A stretch of DNA of 43,590 bases from an uncultured Coriobacteriaceae bacterium (GTDB lineage: Bacteria > Actinomycetota > Coriobacteriia > Coriobacteriales > CADBOM01), in assembly GCA_902796325.1 (NCBI GenBank), contig CADBOM010000195.1, forward strand, positions 1 through 43,590. Direction: 5' to 3'. Of this stretch, positions 27,015-34,162 are shown in pieces. Under the pieces are notes generated by a model. That model saw only the letters and a list, made by a program, of their open reading frames with translations, did no database searches and was not told where the DNA came from. The translations under genes and the position numbers were made by a program. Each line of letters starts with the position of its first letter. Position 1 is the first letter of the stretch.

Positions 27015-27321
27015 ATTTGGATTCTATCACACGCAATAGCGCCACTGCTTGCCGCTGCGCTATGCGGCCCTCTGTTCCATGCAGCATGCGATTGCTCACG
27101 GGGTAATGCCATCTAGCGCACAGGGTTACGCATAATTTGAACGTGTTATATTTACATGAGGAAAAAAGCCGGGATGGCAGGGCATCTGCAATTGCACCAG
27201 ATTCCCGTGCTAGACGAGACCTGCTGCTGTATGAGCTTCGAGCACTTTGCTTGAGCTCCATCGTTGGCAACTCCATCGCTGGCTGCAGGTATTTGCAAAA
27301 ACGAGAAAACGAGGAGAAGAC
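27015..27321. other. Intergenic region between rnpB and the DUF169 gene
   Basis: 307 bp without a gene. The left end should hold the minus-strand rnpB promoter (TAGAAT at about 27020-27025). TTATATTT near 27145 could be a -10 for the rightward DUF169 gene, with a poor -35. The DUF169 reading frame stays open back to 27247 but has no ribosome site there. Confidence 0.4.
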
Positions 27322-28083
27322 ATGGTAATTCCCAACGACTACGATGCATTGGACCTTCTGGAACTCGAGGATTCGCCGATTGGCGTTAAGTACAGCTTCT
27401 TCAAGCCAAAGGACATCGAGCATTTTGACAACGCTGACGAAAAATCGCTGTGCGAGATTTTCCGCACCGCGCAGGTAGAGGACAGGGCTTTCTACATCTC
27501 CCATGAAGATAAGCAGGGTTGTGTGGGAAAGATCTTCCTTGGCATGGAACCCATGACTCCGTTTGCCGAGAGCGGTCAGATTGGCGAGAGGCTCGGCGTG
27601 TTCGATGATGCCCGCAACAACGCCAAGCTATATCCTCAGATTTCGACCTTCAAAGAGGGGGATGTGAATTTCGTCTCGTTTGCCCCGGTTAAGAAGATGA
27701 ACTTCGAGCCCGACGTGCTGGTGATAAGCACTACTCCCGACAAGGGCGAGATCATCATGCGCGCCGCAACCCGCTCCACCGGAATGGCCTATAAGTCGGT
27801 GTGCACTCCGGTTATGGGATGCACCTGGTTTCTCATCTACCCATATCTCGAGGATCAGGTGAACTTCATCCTGCCGCAGCTCGTGCATGGGCTGCATGGT
27901 CGCGAGGTGTACCCGGATCCCTCCACTATGCTCATAAGCATTCCGTACAAGTGGATTCCGACGGTTCTCAACAACCTGCGCAATATGCCGCTCGAGCTTG
28001 AGGGTCATAAGAGCCGCGAGGCGTATTTTGCGGAATTCAACGGGATAATGGCAGACCTTGCGGAAGAGATGAAGCAGATTTAG
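27322..28083 (+). CDS. DUF169 family protein
   Basis: 253 residues, DUF169 family, function unknown; such proteins are common in strict anaerobes and archaea. Family-like features: the N-terminal LLELEDSPIGVKYSFFKP, a Cys in EKSLCEIFRTAQ (family members often have a Cys here), GCVGKIFLGM, FAPVKKMNFEPDVLVIS, and MGCTWFLIYPYLEDQVNFIL then IPYKWIPTVLNNL. No signal peptide or membrane segment. ATG 27322 follows GAGGAGAAGAC. It is separated by 376 bp from the next gene, so it may be a single-gene unit at the edge of the accessory block. Confidence 0.82.
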   Translation: MVIPNDYDALDLLELEDSPIGVKYSFFKPKDIEHFDNADEKSLCEIFRTAQVEDRAFYISHEDKQGCVGKIFLGMEPMTPFAESGQIGERLGVFDDARNNAKLYPQISTFKEGDVNFVSFAPVKKMNFEPDVLVISTTPDKGEIIMRAATRSTGMAYKSVCTPVMGCTWFLIYPYLEDQVNFILPQLVHGLHGREVYPDPSTMLISIPYKWIPTVLNNLRNMPLELEGHKSREAYFAEFNGIMADLAEEMKQI

Positions 28084-28459: not shown

Positions 28460-29737
28460 ATGGCCAACCAGGCACTCGAGAATGCATTGGGCGAATACGA
28501 GAAGGTAGAGCAAAGCTATGTGGAGCGCCTGGAGGAGCGAGGGATAAAGTTTGCTCCAAGGGGCGAGGGCCAGGAACGTGTTGACGAGCTGCGCAAACAG
28601 CTCAAGTCTCGCGGTGCCGAGTTTAGAAATGCCGGGGCATCCATAAGGTACGGATGGCTTTCGCAGGCTTGCGTGGACTGCACGGGAAGCGAAGGGTCAG
28701 AGACCTTCGCCACTACTTTCAAATGCCATAGAGACTGCTTCTTCTGCTTCAACCATAACCAACCCGACTACGACACCTTTGTTGCAGATGACTGCCCGTG
28801 GGAGCAGGTCCTTGCCGATTCCGTGCGCGTCAACCATGGGAAGATCTCGTCCGTGGGGCTAACCGGCGGCGAGCCGCTGCTAGATGTAGACGAGAGCATC
28901 AGATTCCTCGATCGTGTGGCCGAGGTTTTTCCCGGCGCACACACTCGCATGTACACCACCGGCGATCAGCTGACCCCCGAAGTTGCGCAGCGTTTGGCCG
29001 ATGCTGGACTTCACGAGATTCGCTTCAGCATAAAGCAGGAAGACAACAGCGGCGCGCTCGACCGCACGCTGCAGAACATGAGGATAGCCAAGGATTACAT
29101 CCCCGATGTGATGGTTGAGATGCCGGTGATTCCCGGCACCCGCGACTTCATGGAGAGAGTGTTCGGAGAGCTAGATTCAATCGGAATTAGCGGCATTAAC
29201 CTCTTGGAGTTCTGCTTCCCATTCTGCAATTGGGAGGAATTCGACAAGCGCGGGTTTGTGATGAAGAACCCTCCGTTCGACATCATGTACGACTACGACT
29301 ACTCCGGCGGCCTCGCCGTGGCTGGGAGCGAGGAGCTCTGCCTCGAGCTCATGCTGTACGGGATTGAACAGGGAGTGTCGTTTGGCATGCATTATTGCTC
29401 GCTGGACAACAAGCACAGGAGCCAGATGCGGCAGCAGAACGAGCCTGGCGCGAAGATGAACCGCTGCTTTGAGTTTGATAAGGGCGATTTCTTCCTCAAG
29501 ACCGCAAAGGTGTTTGGAGAAGATCGCGAGCGTGCAATGAAGGTGCTGCAACGAGCCGGATGCCATGATTTCATTCAAAATGATTCAGAGCAATCGGTAT
29601 CGTTCAACCCTCGATATCTGCGCAAACTTCGCAGCGTCAAGGCTGATCCGGCAATGAGCTTCAATGTGCTGGAGCACGATGCCGGCGGGCGTTATCTGCG
29701 CGAGGTTGGGATGAAGCCATTGGAGCAGGCTAAATGA
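28460..29737 (+). CDS. Radical SAM protein, function unknown
   Basis: 425 residues. The radical SAM cluster motif is CHRDCFFC (C89, C93, C96), followed by the GGEP-type SAM motif (SVGLTGGEPLLDVDESIRFL) and the barrel strands DAGLHEIRFSIKQE and VEMPVIPGT. An extra Cys pair upstream (ACVDCTG, C71 and C74) and Cys further on (LEFCFPFC, HYCSLDN) leave room for a second cluster, but this is not certain. The ~85-residue N-terminal part is helical and charged. ATG 28460 follows AAGGTGGGACGGGC. Its stop overlaps the J-domain gene start (ATGA), so the two are coupled. Substrate unknown. Confidence 0.85.
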   Translation: MANQALENALGEYEKVEQSYVERLEERGIKFAPRGEGQERVDELRKQLKSRGAEFRNAGASIRYGWLSQACVDCTGSEGSETFATTFKCHRDCFFCFNHNQPDYDTFVADDCPWEQVLADSVRVNHGKISSVGLTGGEPLLDVDESIRFLDRVAEVFPGAHTRMYTTGDQLTPEVAQRLADAGLHEIRFSIKQEDNSGALDRTLQNMRIAKDYIPDVMVEMPVIPGTRDFMERVFGELDSIGISGINLLEFCFPFCNWEEFDKRGFVMKNPPFDIMYDYDYSGGLAVAGSEELCLELMLYGIEQGVSFGMHYCSLDNKHRSQMRQQNEPGAKMNRCFEFDKGDFFLKTAKVFGEDRERAMKVLQRAGCHDFIQNDSEQSVSFNPRYLRKLRSVKADPAMSFNVLEHDAGGRYLREVGMKPLEQAK

Positions 29738-30429
29738 AGCGAAGCGAGGCATTGGAGCTGCTGGGGTTAACCGGGAACCCCTCCGATGGGGAGATAACCA
29801 GTGCCTGGCGCAGCACCATCCGCAAGGTTCATCCCGATCTGTTTCCAGACGATCCCGACAAGAGGGAGTGGGCCAGCAAACAGGCCGCACGCGTGAACGA
29901 GGCCCACGACGTTCTGCTGTCTGGCCATTGGGAGCCAGAAAGCGCGGGCACCGGTTCTGCGGGATCTTCCTCGAATGGCTCCTACGCTGGTGCTTATAGA
30001 GACACCACAACGGTGTCTTCCGGAGCGTACGGGACTTACAACACTTGGGATGGCTCGGGCGCGGGCAGCTACTACAGCGCCAGCGCTTCTGCCGTTCCGG
30101 ATACCAGGAGCCGCAAGTTCCACATTGCCGGCATCGTTTTGCGTGCGGGAATTGCGTTTGCACTTTGCTGTGTTTACGCGATATTCGGCAACCTCGAATT
30201 CTTGACGCTCGATTTCGTGCTGGATTTCATGGCAGTTGGTGGCATCGTGTGGACTATCAACTGGTTGTGCGTTCGATCGCCTGAACGCGGCATTGCCGGT
30301 GTGATTTTCTCGGTGATACTGGTTCTGCTATCTCAGATGCAGTTTTTAACTGGGATATTCAGGGTTGTCTTCGCCATGGTTGCCGTGGTGGCCACGGTTT
30401 ACGATATCAGGCGATATGTGATTGACTAG
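29734..30429 (+). CDS. J-domain membrane protein
   Basis: 231 residues. N-terminal J domain with H33-P34-D35 (RKVHPDLFPDD) and a normal helix II/III pattern, so it should stimulate an Hsp70 (DnaK). A Ser/Gly/Tyr-rich linker (about 68-125) joins it to a C-terminal membrane part with about four helices (for example LRAGIAFALCCVYAIFGNL, VILVLLSQMQFLTGIF). It would recruit DnaK to the membrane. The start ATG 29734 overlaps the TGA of the radical SAM gene, and the next gene starts 28 nt after the stop. Confidence 0.85.
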   Translation: MKRSEALELLGLTGNPSDGEITSAWRSTIRKVHPDLFPDDPDKREWASKQAARVNEAHDVLLSGHWEPESAGTGSAGSSSNGSYAGAYRDTTTVSSGAYGTYNTWDGSGAGSYYSASASAVPDTRSRKFHIAGIVLRAGIAFALCCVYAIFGNLEFLTLDFVLDFMAVGGIVWTINWLCVRSPERGIAGVIFSVILVLLSQMQFLTGIFRVVFAMVAVVATVYDIRRYVID

Positions 30430-30457
30430 AAAATTCCAGAAGGGACAGTGCGCAAAC

Positions 30458-31402
30458 ATGGTTACTAGAAAAAGGATGGATAGGCGCTGGTCGCAGCTTA
30501 CGGCTGCAGATGTGCAGTCTATTGCCGACGCTGCAACTGTGGAGCAGTACAGCAAGAGCGTGTTTGGCAGACAGTTTTCTCCGGAGTTCACGGACGCTCT
30601 CGTGGGCAGGCCGTTGCTGATCAAGCTCGATGACGGCAGAACCTACGAGTACACGTTCAGAAGCTTGCACGAGCTTGCATGGAAACGCACTGACGAAGCG
30701 GCGTTCAGCGCCGATGGCGATGCGGCAACTCTCACAGACGATCGAAATGCCTGGGCAAAGCAGGGCGGTCCAGAGCGCTTGTCCGATACCGACGAGCATG
30801 TGGAATATTACGAGGCCCTTCCAACTCCGGGTGCAGAGAATCTGATTTTCTTGCAGCATTACGTCAAGGGGTCAGTGCCTCCGACAGCCCATATGCTGGT
30901 CATAGACACTGATAGCGGCCTGGTTACCTTCTGCATTAGCAGGATTGGCGTTCCGGCATCGGCTATCGAGGTTTCCAGGGAGTTCGGGTTTGGAATTCTC
31001 GATGGCTATGACGATACCGGAACGCGCCATGGCTTTACCGAGGAACTGGTTGGCAATGCGATCTACTGGACCTACAGCGATGCCGATGCCGTGAAGGTGA
31101 AGCACATCTACACAGCTCCTCTCTATTACACATACTCTATGGCTGTTCCCGATGGACGTTGCTGGGTGGCATCCAATCCGGCCGACTATGTGAAGCTGTC
31201 AGACGGCATTTACCTGTTCGCTTTTACCGAGGAACGACAAGCTGGTTACCAGGGAATGTTCGTTATCAACTTGCCGCTTTTGCACGACGTTGCCTCGTTC
31301 TTCGGTGTCAATGCCCAGGGGATGTTCCTCAGCACCACAGGTGCCAGAGGAGAGCTCTCGGATGCCTATTCGTGGGATATGTGCGACACGAGGGATTGCT
31401 AG
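30458..31402 (+). CDS. MoaF-like protein (N- and C-terminal MoaF domains)
   Basis: About 314 residues resembling MoaF, a small-barrel protein first linked to molybdenum cofactor genes; its real role is unsettled. The N-terminal half contains LVGRPLLIKLDDGRTYEYTF; the C-terminal half contains ELVGNAIYWTYSDADAVKVK, then HIYTAPLYYTYSM, typical of MoaF_C. No other molybdenum cofactor gene lies nearby. No signal peptide. ATG 30458 follows AGAAGGGACAG; a TTG at 30422, overlapping the previous stop, is in frame but less likely. Probably in one unit with the radical SAM and J-domain genes. Confidence 0.75.
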   Translation: MVTRKRMDRRWSQLTAADVQSIADAATVEQYSKSVFGRQFSPEFTDALVGRPLLIKLDDGRTYEYTFRSLHELAWKRTDEAAFSADGDAATLTDDRNAWAKQGGPERLSDTDEHVEYYEALPTPGAENLIFLQHYVKGSVPPTAHMLVIDTDSGLVTFCISRIGVPASAIEVSREFGFGILDGYDDTGTRHGFTEELVGNAIYWTYSDADAVKVKHIYTAPLYYTYSMAVPDGRCWVASNPADYVKLSDGIYLFAFTEERQAGYQGMFVINLPLLHDVASFFGVNAQGMFLSTTGARGELSDAYSWDMCDTRDC

Positions 31403-31640
31403 GGCGTTTGCTAAGGCATACGCCGGGGTATCCGCGCGGCTGTCCGCTTGCATCGCCACGATTTTGCTGCTCTCGGGGCGCTCTTGTCCTCGTGCACCGG
31501 CGCAAGCTCTGTAGACAGTACATCGAAGCCGCCAGATTATCTATAAAATTCGTACTTCTTGGCTCCAACCTCCAACTTTCGCGCTATCATGTCTCTGTAA
31601 ACATTAAATGCGCTCAAAAAGTGTAGAGGAGGAGTTAAGT
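31403..31640 (+). promoter_or_regulatory. Upstream region of the double-cupin gene
   Basis: 238 bp. TATAAAAT at 31542-31549 is a good -10-like element, but its -35 is poor. TGTAAAC lies at 31596-31602, a heptamer also found before other genes here. GGAGGAG (about 31628) sets the start of the next gene at 31641. Confidence 0.35.
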
Positions 31641-32906
31641 ATGCAGGAGAAGTTCGAGAATCTTTTCTACGAGTTCGAGCCGGACAATACCGATTTTGGT
31701 GATTGGTGCCTTAAGCCGCAGATGTTCTTCCATGGAAGCAAGGACATTCCAGAGTCCAATCTGTTCGCTGGGTTCCAGGTGATAACCAAACCGGTGACCA
31801 TGGAGGATGAGCCTATTTTCCACGAGGTGGAGGAGAACCTCTTCTTCCTCGGTGCCACGCTTCCCGACGTGTTCAAGTCGTTCGATGCGGAAATTCAGTT
31901 CTACATGGGTCCCTCGCTCGACAAGATGGAGAAAATCGTCATCACGGAGCCTACGGTTATTCGCGTGGCTCCCGGTTGGTGGCATGGCCCCCTCAAGTTC
32001 GTGCGTGTGGACAAACCAGTGCTGTTCCAAGCGTCGCTGCAGCAGGGTACCCCTGGATCTATCAAGCTAACCCAGCCTCATGAGGGATACGATCCCATCT
32101 ACGTGTATTCGAACCAAGACCCGCATAGATACGATGCGGCTCACATCAAATCCATGAAGTCCGTCCCGTGGACCGTGATAAACGAGGATGGAGTCGAGTG
32201 CTACACGGTAACAGGCGCATACAACTATGTGGAAGCTCCCAGCTCCCTGGATACCGTGATAAGGCCGGGGTACAAGTCCAAGGCATATTCCGATGCCACT
32301 GCGCTTCAGCATCCGAAGCCAACTCTTACGGACGAAACCACCAAGAGGGTTCTGGCCCTTCCTAGGGAAGAGACCAAATGGGGAGATTGGTGCCCGTCTC
32401 CACAGACGTATTTCAGGGGCGACATCTACATGGAAGATGCCTCGTACAACGTGGGCTGGCAGGTGTTCGCCGGCGCAAACGATATGGAGGAGCCGCATTT
32501 CCACCTAGGCGTTGACGAGTACATTTTCTTCGTGGGTGCCAACCCCATGGATATGTTCGACTTCGATGCCGAGATCGACTTCGCGATAGGCGAGGATCCC
32601 GATCACATGGAGCACCGTATGATCACGAAGCCAACCGTTGTGAAGCTCCCGCCAACCACATGGCATTGCCCCATCCTGTTCAGGAAAATGAACAAGCCGC
32701 TGATGTTCCAGTCGGTGTTCCTCGACGGTACTTGGGGAACCATCACAAGGTCGAAGGAAGAGCCGGTGGACAAGGGGTTCTTTGCCAGGACCTACATGTA
32801 CGATTACATGGGAGATAACGTGAGGTTCTGCCGTTTCAACGAGAAGAAGCGCTGCAACATCTGCGGAGCTTGTTTCCCGAGGATGGAAGGGCTTGAGGAC
32901 GAGTAA
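31641..32906 (+). CDS. Duplicated cupin-like protein with C-terminal CxxCxxC
   Basis: 421 residues, no function recognised. Two homologous halves: about 18-140 (DFGDWCLKPQMFFHG ... PGWWHGPLKF) and about 246-372 (KWGDWCPSPQTYFRG ... TTWHCPILF). Each has beta-rich blocks like cupins, with an EENLFFLGA/DEYIFFVGA strand. The second half has H286-x-H288 and H342, a plausible metal site; the first keeps only H61 and H115, so it may be the degenerate copy. The last 20 residues hold C405-x2-C408-x2-C411 (a zinc or Fe-S motif). No signal peptide. ATG 31641 follows GGAGGAGTTAAGT. The next gene points the other way. Confidence 0.7.
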   Translation: MQEKFENLFYEFEPDNTDFGDWCLKPQMFFHGSKDIPESNLFAGFQVITKPVTMEDEPIFHEVEENLFFLGATLPDVFKSFDAEIQFYMGPSLDKMEKIVITEPTVIRVAPGWWHGPLKFVRVDKPVLFQASLQQGTPGSIKLTQPHEGYDPIYVYSNQDPHRYDAAHIKSMKSVPWTVINEDGVECYTVTGAYNYVEAPSSLDTVIRPGYKSKAYSDATALQHPKPTLTDETTKRVLALPREETKWGDWCPSPQTYFRGDIYMEDASYNVGWQVFAGANDMEEPHFHLGVDEYIFFVGANPMDMFDFDAEIDFAIGEDPDHMEHRMITKPTVVKLPPTTWHCPILFRKMNKPLMFQSVFLDGTWGTITRSKEEPVDKGFFARTYMYDYMGDNVRFCRFNEKKRCNICGACFPRMEGLEDE

Positions 32907-33172: not shown

Positions 33173-34162
33173 CTACTCGCTCTTCTCCGCCTTGATCTTC
33201 TCTATAAGCTCGTGGCCGTACTTTACGGCCTCGTTCGTCATAACGGGGTCGATCATCTTCTTCAGCTTGAAACCCATGAAGCCGTACGAATGTCCGAACT
33301 TACCGTATTCATCAAGGCAACGGTGAACCTCGGCAATCGTAACCTCGTCGCTGGCATCGGTGGCGCCTGGCGCTCCCTGGGTGTCGTAACCTCCCATGAT
33401 GGAGAGCTTGTCGCCATACTTCTCAATAATCCCGGCGATGTCGTTAGAGGGCTGCGCAACTTGCCAGCACACGCTACCCTCCTCGATGATGTCGGGGATT
33501 ATGGCCTCGCATTTCCCGCAAATGTGGATGATGGGCAGCATTCCCAGGCTCTTTGCACATTCGTTCATCTTGATGTGGCCGGGCTTTATGAACTTGCGGT
33601 AGATATCTGGGGACATGAACAGCGATCTTTCGGTGGCCACGTCGTCCAGGTGCACGTAGGTTTCTGGGTGAATGTACTCGGCAACCCGCTCGAGCAGGCG
33701 GCACTTGTAGTCAGCGATGGCATCGCATAGAGCCTTGCTGGCTTCGGGCTCCTCGTAAAATGCGCATAGGGCGTTTTCGAACCCCAGCAGATGGGTGAAC
33801 CTCAGGAACACCGAGTTCCAGGTGTAGTACTCTATCACGCGCCCATTGGGCTTCCAGATGCCGTACTGCTCGTCCGAATACTTCTGCCAGTCTATGGCGT
33901 CGAGGTCGGGGAATTTCACCACATCTTCCCAGTCACATACATCATCGAGCGGGATGTTCGCTGGATCGAGCGCAGGCTGCCCTCCGGCCGACTCCGTTGG
34001 AATCCACCCGTTGCCAAATCCGTCGAGGCCTCCCTCCATTGGTCCATTCTCCCAATACTCGAACTGACCTCCAAAGAGCGTGTTGTCCACTCCGAACACC
34101 GGGATCCAGTCCACGGGCTCGTGGTTCAGAAAGGCCATGTAGTTGTCATGCGCGTCCATCAT
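33173..34162 (-). CDS. Uroporphyrinogen decarboxylase-fold methyltransferase-like protein
   Basis: 329 residues, UroD family TIM barrel of the MtaA/MtbA and O-demethylase type rather than a heme-pathway HemE, judged from the N terminus (NYMAFLNHEPVDWIPVFG) and the zinc-type motif H213-x-C215-GKC218 (IIHICGKCEAIIPDIIEEGS). Other family blocks: VHLDDVATERSLFMSPDIYR, FIKPGHIKMN and SIMGGYDTQ. Such proteins move methyl groups between corrinoid proteins and coenzyme M, tetrahydrofolate or aromatic methoxy donors. No corrinoid protein is encoded in the window. ATG 34162 follows GGAGAGGGGTACCCAAG. Transcribed opposite to its neighbours. Confidence 0.82.
   Translation of the reverse strand: MMDAHDNYMAFLNHEPVDWIPVFGVDNTLFGGQFEYWENGPMEGGLDGFGNGWIPTESAGGQPALDPANIPLDDVCDWEDVVKFPDLDAIDWQKYSDEQYGIWKPNGRVIEYYTWNSVFLRFTHLLGFENALCAFYEEPEASKALCDAIADYKCRLLERVAEYIHPETYVHLDDVATERSLFMSPDIYRKFIKPGHIKMNECAKSLGMLPIIHICGKCEAIIPDIIEEGSVCWQVAQPSNDIAGIIEKYGDKLSIMGGYDTQGAPGATDASDEVTIAEVHRCLDEYGKFGHSYGFMGFKLKKMIDPVMTNEAVKYGHELIEKIKAEKSE

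Follow-up and report, generated by a model that had tools for sequence, protein, structure and literature searches.

The window, i.e. the entire 43,590-nucleotide stretch of DNA analyzed here, contains at positions 31641..32906 of the forward strand (+) a gene for a 421-aa double cupin protein with a cysteine tail, which was delimited by its open reading frame and translation, an alignment of orthologues and a check of the ribosome-binding site. An alternative in-frame ATG is present upstream at 31608, but the start at 31641 is favored because an AGGAGG-type ribosome-binding-like site lies just 5' of it and the six other double orthologues begin at the aligned position, one of them (L002) with GTG. 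The N-terminal cupin unit, which lacks a Cys tail, occupies 31650..32120 (+) as judged from half-versus-half alignment, unit comparison and a core tree, and the C-terminal cupin unit including its four-cysteine (Cys4) tail occupies 32340..32897 (+) according to alignments and the predicted model. The Cys4 motif itself, C397-x7-C405-x2-C408-x2-C411, is located at 32829..32873 (+) by translation and alignments. A gene encoding a protein with MoaF and MoaF_C domain matches (30422..31402, +) directly precedes the cupin gene on the same strand, with a gap of 238 bp, and a gene for a URO-D / MtaA-like protein (33173..34162, -) is convergent with the cupin gene at a distance of 267 bp downstream. Domain matches also identified a DUF169 protein (27247..28083, +) as a possible further member of this neighborhood, and a DUF169 gene is likewise present in L005, located some 6 kb away from the double cupin gene. 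A radical SAM protein, assigned by domain matches with no NCBIfam match above cut-off (28460..29737, +), is encoded between the DUF169 gene and a gene for a J-domain protein; it is a neighbor with no shown tie to the cupin. Base composition shows no trace of horizontal transfer of the cupin gene (GC 0.539 in the cupin gene vs. 0.553 in the window).

The two cupin halves are homologous, as a reading made from the sequence alone had proposed, with 54 of 132 residues identical (41%; BLASTP E 2e-31) and a half-versus-half local score of 254, whereas 500 shuffles averaged 31 and never exceeded 59. The same sequence-only reading had assigned a metal site to the second half only, and the complete metal set, H286-x-H288-x4-E293...H342, is indeed restricted to the C half; however, the N half retains H61, E65 and H115 and has I59 in the place of the first metal His, and judged by its residues its metal site is incomplete rather than ligand-free. 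The core of cupin motif 1, given as HxH(x)3,4E in PMC3765361, is present in the C half and lacks its first His in the N half, while the region of cupin motif 2, PxG(x)2H, is represented by a proline-rich stretch preceding W341-H342 in which the Gly is not retained. In addition, the C half possesses both R259, the Arg of the YFRG motif, and C343, which directly follows the last metal His, H342. The N half carries H31 at the position where most tailed units have Arg, shows WHGP in the second motif and has no Cys tail. The orthologues retain the metal site, Arg, C343 and tail of the C half, whereas the N half has decayed. The earlier designation of a 'regulatory half' is not supported as stated, since what is shown for the N half is degeneration.

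The tail had previously been described as three C-terminal cysteines, with C397 overlooked; it consists of four, all of which are kept in 7/7 double orthologues. In L001, L002, L003, L004 and L006 a tail follows both halves, and the N-half copy is absent in the window protein and in L005. By these alignments the Cys tail belongs to the repeat unit, not to the protein end alone. When 58 of the 61 units were compared (those shorter than 130 aa were dropped), the family motif of a cupin unit followed by C-x5-9-C-x2-C-x2-C was found in 43, the window C half among them. A Cys after the last metal His (WHCP) occurs in 35 units, 33 of which are tailed, compared to 8 tailed units among the 20 that have Gly or Ser at this position (WHGP type), and three units could not be assigned; the resulting association between this residue and the tail (Fisher P 1.8e-5) is optimistic because the units are related by descent. 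In some tailed family units Asn replaces the first metal His, so that neither the metal site nor its ligand set is fixed across the family. In a unit tree built from the cupin core with the tail excluded, the N halves of the window protein and of L005 form one group (97/97), and the window C half joins the C halves of the other doubles (100/100). The duplication therefore predates these orthologues, since N and C halves group separately in the core tree. Units that lack both the Cys and the tail are located on several branches and require at least 3 to 4 changes on this tree, a pattern which suggests that the tail may have been retained in catalytic units and lost from units that turned non-catalytic.

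Searches against known families agree with the earlier statement that the protein has no characterised relative by sequence. Neither the window protein nor its C half matched any Pfam or NCBIfam family at E values up to 1, phmmer gave no match of the window protein to PDB sequences, and the family profiles produced only chance-level matches to PDB sequences. When 17 double proteins and 42 units were scanned singly, only weak matches to GPI, Cupin_2, WbuC and Fer4-type models were obtained. The best E values among family members were 0.01 for Cupin_2 and 0.00089 for GPI, and the window protein matches neither. The Fer4-type matches were likewise weak (1-2 of 42 units, best E 0.0019; none for the window protein), the match in L006 reaching 11.9 bits compared to a cut-off of 27; a cluster of a non-standard type may still be present. 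Searches of the family libraries and the literature turned up no description of the Cys4-tailed unit, of its expansion or of its association with MoaF. The protein represents a new family within a known fold, the bicupin plan itself being already known.

AlphaFold2 predicted a bicupin for the full-length protein (pLDDT 83.1, pTM 0.85; alignment of 17 double proteins) and yielded a pLDDT of 89.1 for the C half alone (42-unit alignment). The best Foldseek matches in the PDB were MncA (E 1.5e-14) and oxalate decarboxylase (E about 1e-13), both within 10-14% identity, followed by seed globulins and quercetinase, so that the matches span decarboxylases, dioxygenases and seed storage proteins. In VIA-align the oxalate decarboxylase OxdC (5hi0) reached a Z of 17.9 with an rmsd of 4.6 over 287 residues, and seed globulins reached about 16. 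For the C half alone the best match was ABP1 (Z 10.5, rmsd 3.4, 140 aligned), followed by KduI, MarH, DddK, MncA and KdgF (all Z 9.0-9.5), and a BFVD search with the C-half model returned generic cupins only. The cupin beta-barrel and the bicupin fold are established by these predictions, with no enzyme family singled out among the matches listed. The sequence-only reading would have been refuted by placement of the protein in a well-studied cupin enzyme family, but the fold matches have low identity and belong to mixed families. The monocupins KduI, KdgF, DddK and MarH resemble the single C unit in fold but share only 8-18% identity with it. They are O2-independent metal cupins that carry out isomerisation, ring opening, elimination or epimerisation, and to our knowledge they have neither a Cys tail nor a MoaF partner. 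Although ABP1 gives the top Z for the C half alone, ABP1 and germin oxalate oxidase are plant proteins with 10-12% identity, for which we know of no Cys4 tail.

A scan of an 84,980-species genome collection for orthologues identified six loci (L001-L006) with double proteins 58-62% identical to the window protein. All are from MAGs, labeled Oscillospiraceae (four), Lachnospiraceae (one) and Clostridiales (one), with sheep or water buffalo given for three. The family comprises cupin units, single or double, most of which end in a Cys4 tail, in 10 genomes (G000, which is that of the window, G298-G303, G525, G692 and G878), and each of the six clostridial orthologue genomes contains 5-11 unit-profile matches. 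A single-unit paralogue of about 212-220 aa is encoded directly upstream of the double in L001, L003, L004, L005 and L006. The window genome has its single-unit gene (L008) on another contig, the L002 genome (G299) has one (L037) on a separate contig, and 7/7 genomes with a double orthologue also carry a single orthologue. The family was detected in 2/295 genomes of the order of G303, and full-length tailed units in 3/398 Bacillota genomes (6/398 at E 1e-10), a count in which the weak matches of G842, G923 and G981 (best E 1.3e-24) were taken as negative; no tail was found in L081 of G923, the one weak match read among these three. Among 296 genomes of the window's class the full-length family is present in the window genome alone; at E 1e-6 nine were positive, the other eight having short, distant cupins that were counted as negative. 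Distant short cupins of about 150 aa were observed in other genomes of the same order (L012-L017), one of which (L012) adjoins an Oxidored_FMN-type flavoenzyme.

The distribution of MoaF closely follows that of the cupin family. MoaF_C (PF17409) was found in 10/10 cupin-family genomes vs. 0/14 control genomes, and in the Bacillota sample it occurred in 3/398 genomes, the same three that hold full-length tailed cupins (2/2 vs. 0/395 with the centre genome removed, P 1.3e-5). Only the window's own genome had it among 149 genomes of the window's class, and in the order of G303 it was present in 2/117 genomes, G303 itself and G402, the latter being an exception with MoaF but without a cupin match. 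These counts are not independent events, as the cupin genomes are probably partly related; the window genome falls outside the clostridial set. Since the family is almost confined to MoaF genomes, its members probably act in an anaerobic breakdown pathway that has yet to be described, and the near-perfect co-occurrence supplies a concrete partner for the cupin. Queried against PDB sequences from an inner start at 30458, the window MoaF protein had as its best match the uncharacterised protein 4q51 (E 1.8e-7), and phenolic acid decarboxylases gave E values of 0.3-0.42, which are not significant.

Recurrent neighbors were counted within 8 kb over 29 loci. URO-D/MtaA-like genes were found at four loci in four genomes, the window included, at 18, 197, 267 and 299 bp from the cupin, and glycyl radical enzymes occurred at five loci, SDRs at four, and FAD_binding_2 and PucR genes at three each, with FAD_binding_2 genes at 0 and 46 bp from the cupin in two loci. 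Proteins to which the name solute-binding lipoprotein was assigned are encoded 46-1651 bp from the cupin in four loci; that of L064 has no Pfam match, and its name is a reading. Adjacency of the cupin to any single enzyme type proved modest in a density test that was limited to full-length or tailed cupins and ignored contig ends. URO-D genes were located within 1 kb of the cupin in 3/31 loci (0.68 expected, P 0.03), the fourth URO-D-adjacent locus, L071, being absent from this count since it escapes the Pfam model. For glycyl radical enzymes, 100 of the 103 matches entered the test, the second parts of three split genes being omitted; proximity within 8 kb was found in 5/31 loci with 2.5 expected (P 0.11), and a dedicated glycyl radical enzyme partner was rejected on these numbers. 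The cupin genomes, roughly 2 Mb in size, each contain 6-17 glycyl radical enzyme matches (split genes included; 17 in G000) and 8-19 URO-D-like matches; for comparison, G402 has one and three, respectively. In L058, L064 and L074 two to three cupin units, including units with Asn for the first His, are arranged in a row as tandem genes (L058, L064) or as one double gene (L074), and genes for a solute-binding lipoprotein and a PucR regulator flank them. We read the neighbors, which include transporters, glycyl radical enzymes, flavoenzymes, URO-D-like proteins and sugar genes, as a catabolic setting, and we take the cupin genomes to represent a guild of gut anaerobes whose unusual catabolism involves the cupin family. 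Because the neighbors vary between loci, family members may act on different substrates or have a general role.

Taken as a whole, the proposal that the window protein belongs, as a double-unit form, to a hitherto undescribed family of cupin metalloproteins with Cys tails and acts as an O2-independent catabolic metalloenzyme of gut anaerobes is one to which we give about even chances. Of the earlier suggestion of an oxygen-independent enzyme, the anaerobic setting is borne out, since all 10 genomes contain matches to glycyl radical enzymes, and an enzymatic role is the leading idea that we infer. The C-terminal barrel would bind a metal on H286, H288, E293 and H342 and be the site of catalysis. 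Its chemistry would probably be of the Lewis-acid type, i.e. isomerisation, elimination or decarboxylation of a carboxylated substrate for which the conserved R259 is a candidate anion contact. The N-terminal barrel, without the first His, the equivalent Arg and the tail, would be non-catalytic and probably structural or assembly-related. The Cys4 tail may hold a 4Fe-4S cluster or Zn and may be tied to the catalytic unit, in which C343 follows the last metal His. Short Cys4 sites often bind Zn; the CxxCGxC core and the weak Fer4-type matches make us lean toward Fe-S. The double cupin would work beside the single-unit paralogue and a MoaF-type protein, and the setting leads us to guess at plant-derived phenolics or sugar acids as the substrate class.

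Several other roles have to be weighed against a catabolic metalloenzyme. If the protein served flavoenzymes or glycyl radical enzymes as an accessory partner in electron transfer or assembly, with its tail as a 4Fe-4S relay, this would suit the resemblance of the CxxCGxC core to ferredoxin half-sites, the Fer4-type matches (the best of them in 1/42 units), the close FAD_binding_2 genes of two loci and the position of the window genome's single cupin gene after those for a transporter and a glycyl radical enzyme. However, those matches are weak, that of L006 being far below its cut-off, proximity to glycyl radical enzymes does not clearly exceed the expected level, and a relay would not need a complete conserved barrel metal site, which makes such a role unlikely. 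We regard as somewhat less probable again a metal or redox sensor or regulator, in which the cupin would bind a ligand, the Cys4 tail would sense and nearby transporters or enzymes would be controlled. PucR-type regulators beside the cupins of L058, L064 and L074 and the nearby solute-binding lipoproteins of four loci are consistent with it, but the PucR loci already possess their own regulator, the many paralogues have differing neighbors, and no DNA-binding or signalling domain was found in the domain scans, which speaks against the metal sensor offered as an option in the sequence-only reading.

MncA and many seed globulins are among the fold neighbors and would suggest a non-catalytic bicupin that binds or stores a metal or small molecule as they do. 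A pure store would nevertheless not be expected to keep the tail, C343, the Arg and the metal site of the C half alongside a decaying N half, and the 5-11 family matches per genome also count against it; we consider storage improbable, slightly more so than sensing. Oxalate decarboxylases convert oxalate to formate and CO2, and the top whole-chain fold matches of the window protein are one such enzyme, OxdC, and MncA, with which it shares the bicupin fold. Its C-terminal HxHx4E...H equals the C-terminal site of B. subtilis OxdC, where the Mn ligands are H273-H275-E280-H319 (PMC3765361), a likeness that counts in favor of the catabolic metalloenzyme. Yet the same text characterizes oxalate decarboxylase by two 3His-1Glu Mn sites (PMC3765361), of which the window protein has only one complete, owing to I59. 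In OxdC, catalysis is placed at the N-terminal Mn, which is covered by a SENST lid loop, and both occupied sites and O2 are needed (PMC8254039). Such a mechanism fits poorly because the N site of the window protein lacks one His and its genome abounds in matches to glycyl radical enzymes, i.e. in oxygen-sensitive enzyme types; together with the 10-14% identity to OxdC and MncA, the extra Cys4 tail and the anaerobic host, this renders an oxalate decarboxylase-like decarboxylase very improbable, far more so than any of the other roles.

The catabolic metalloenzyme could be part of a more specific arrangement, namely a two-protein anaerobic system in which the barrel metal, C343 and a 4Fe-4S cluster on the Cys4 tail would form one redox unit that acts with the MoaF-type protein on plant-derived compounds and is shared horizontally in a gut guild rich in glycyl radical enzymes; this extended version is speculative, and we rate it as unlikely as the relay. 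We know of no cupin enzyme with an integral Fe-S cluster, and the two-protein system, if true, would be the first. A multi-copy family without a Pfam or NCBIfam model of its own points to an unnamed piece of anaerobic metabolism, the association of C343 with the Cys4 tail supplies a chemical hypothesis, and an Fe-S cluster in the tail, if true, would widen the known O2-free abilities of the cupin fold.

Some further observations concern the MoaF proteins and the glycyl radical enzymes of these genomes. The clostridial MoaF proteins (L125-L138) are mostly about 580-600 aa long, several of them with a second, weaker MoaF-like module, and three MoaF genes have a glycyl radical enzyme gene no more than 360 bp away. 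Proximity of MoaF and glycyl radical enzyme genes within 3 kb was seen in 3/14 cases, with 0.43 expected (P 0.01). On one strand of L076 (1783-6931) in the window genome, genes for a transporter and a glycyl radical enzyme (GCVEP, RIAGFSAYF) are followed by a single-unit cupin gene. For nine of the 135 URO-D-like matches a glycyl radical enzyme is encoded no more than 3 kb away, compared to 4.4 expected.
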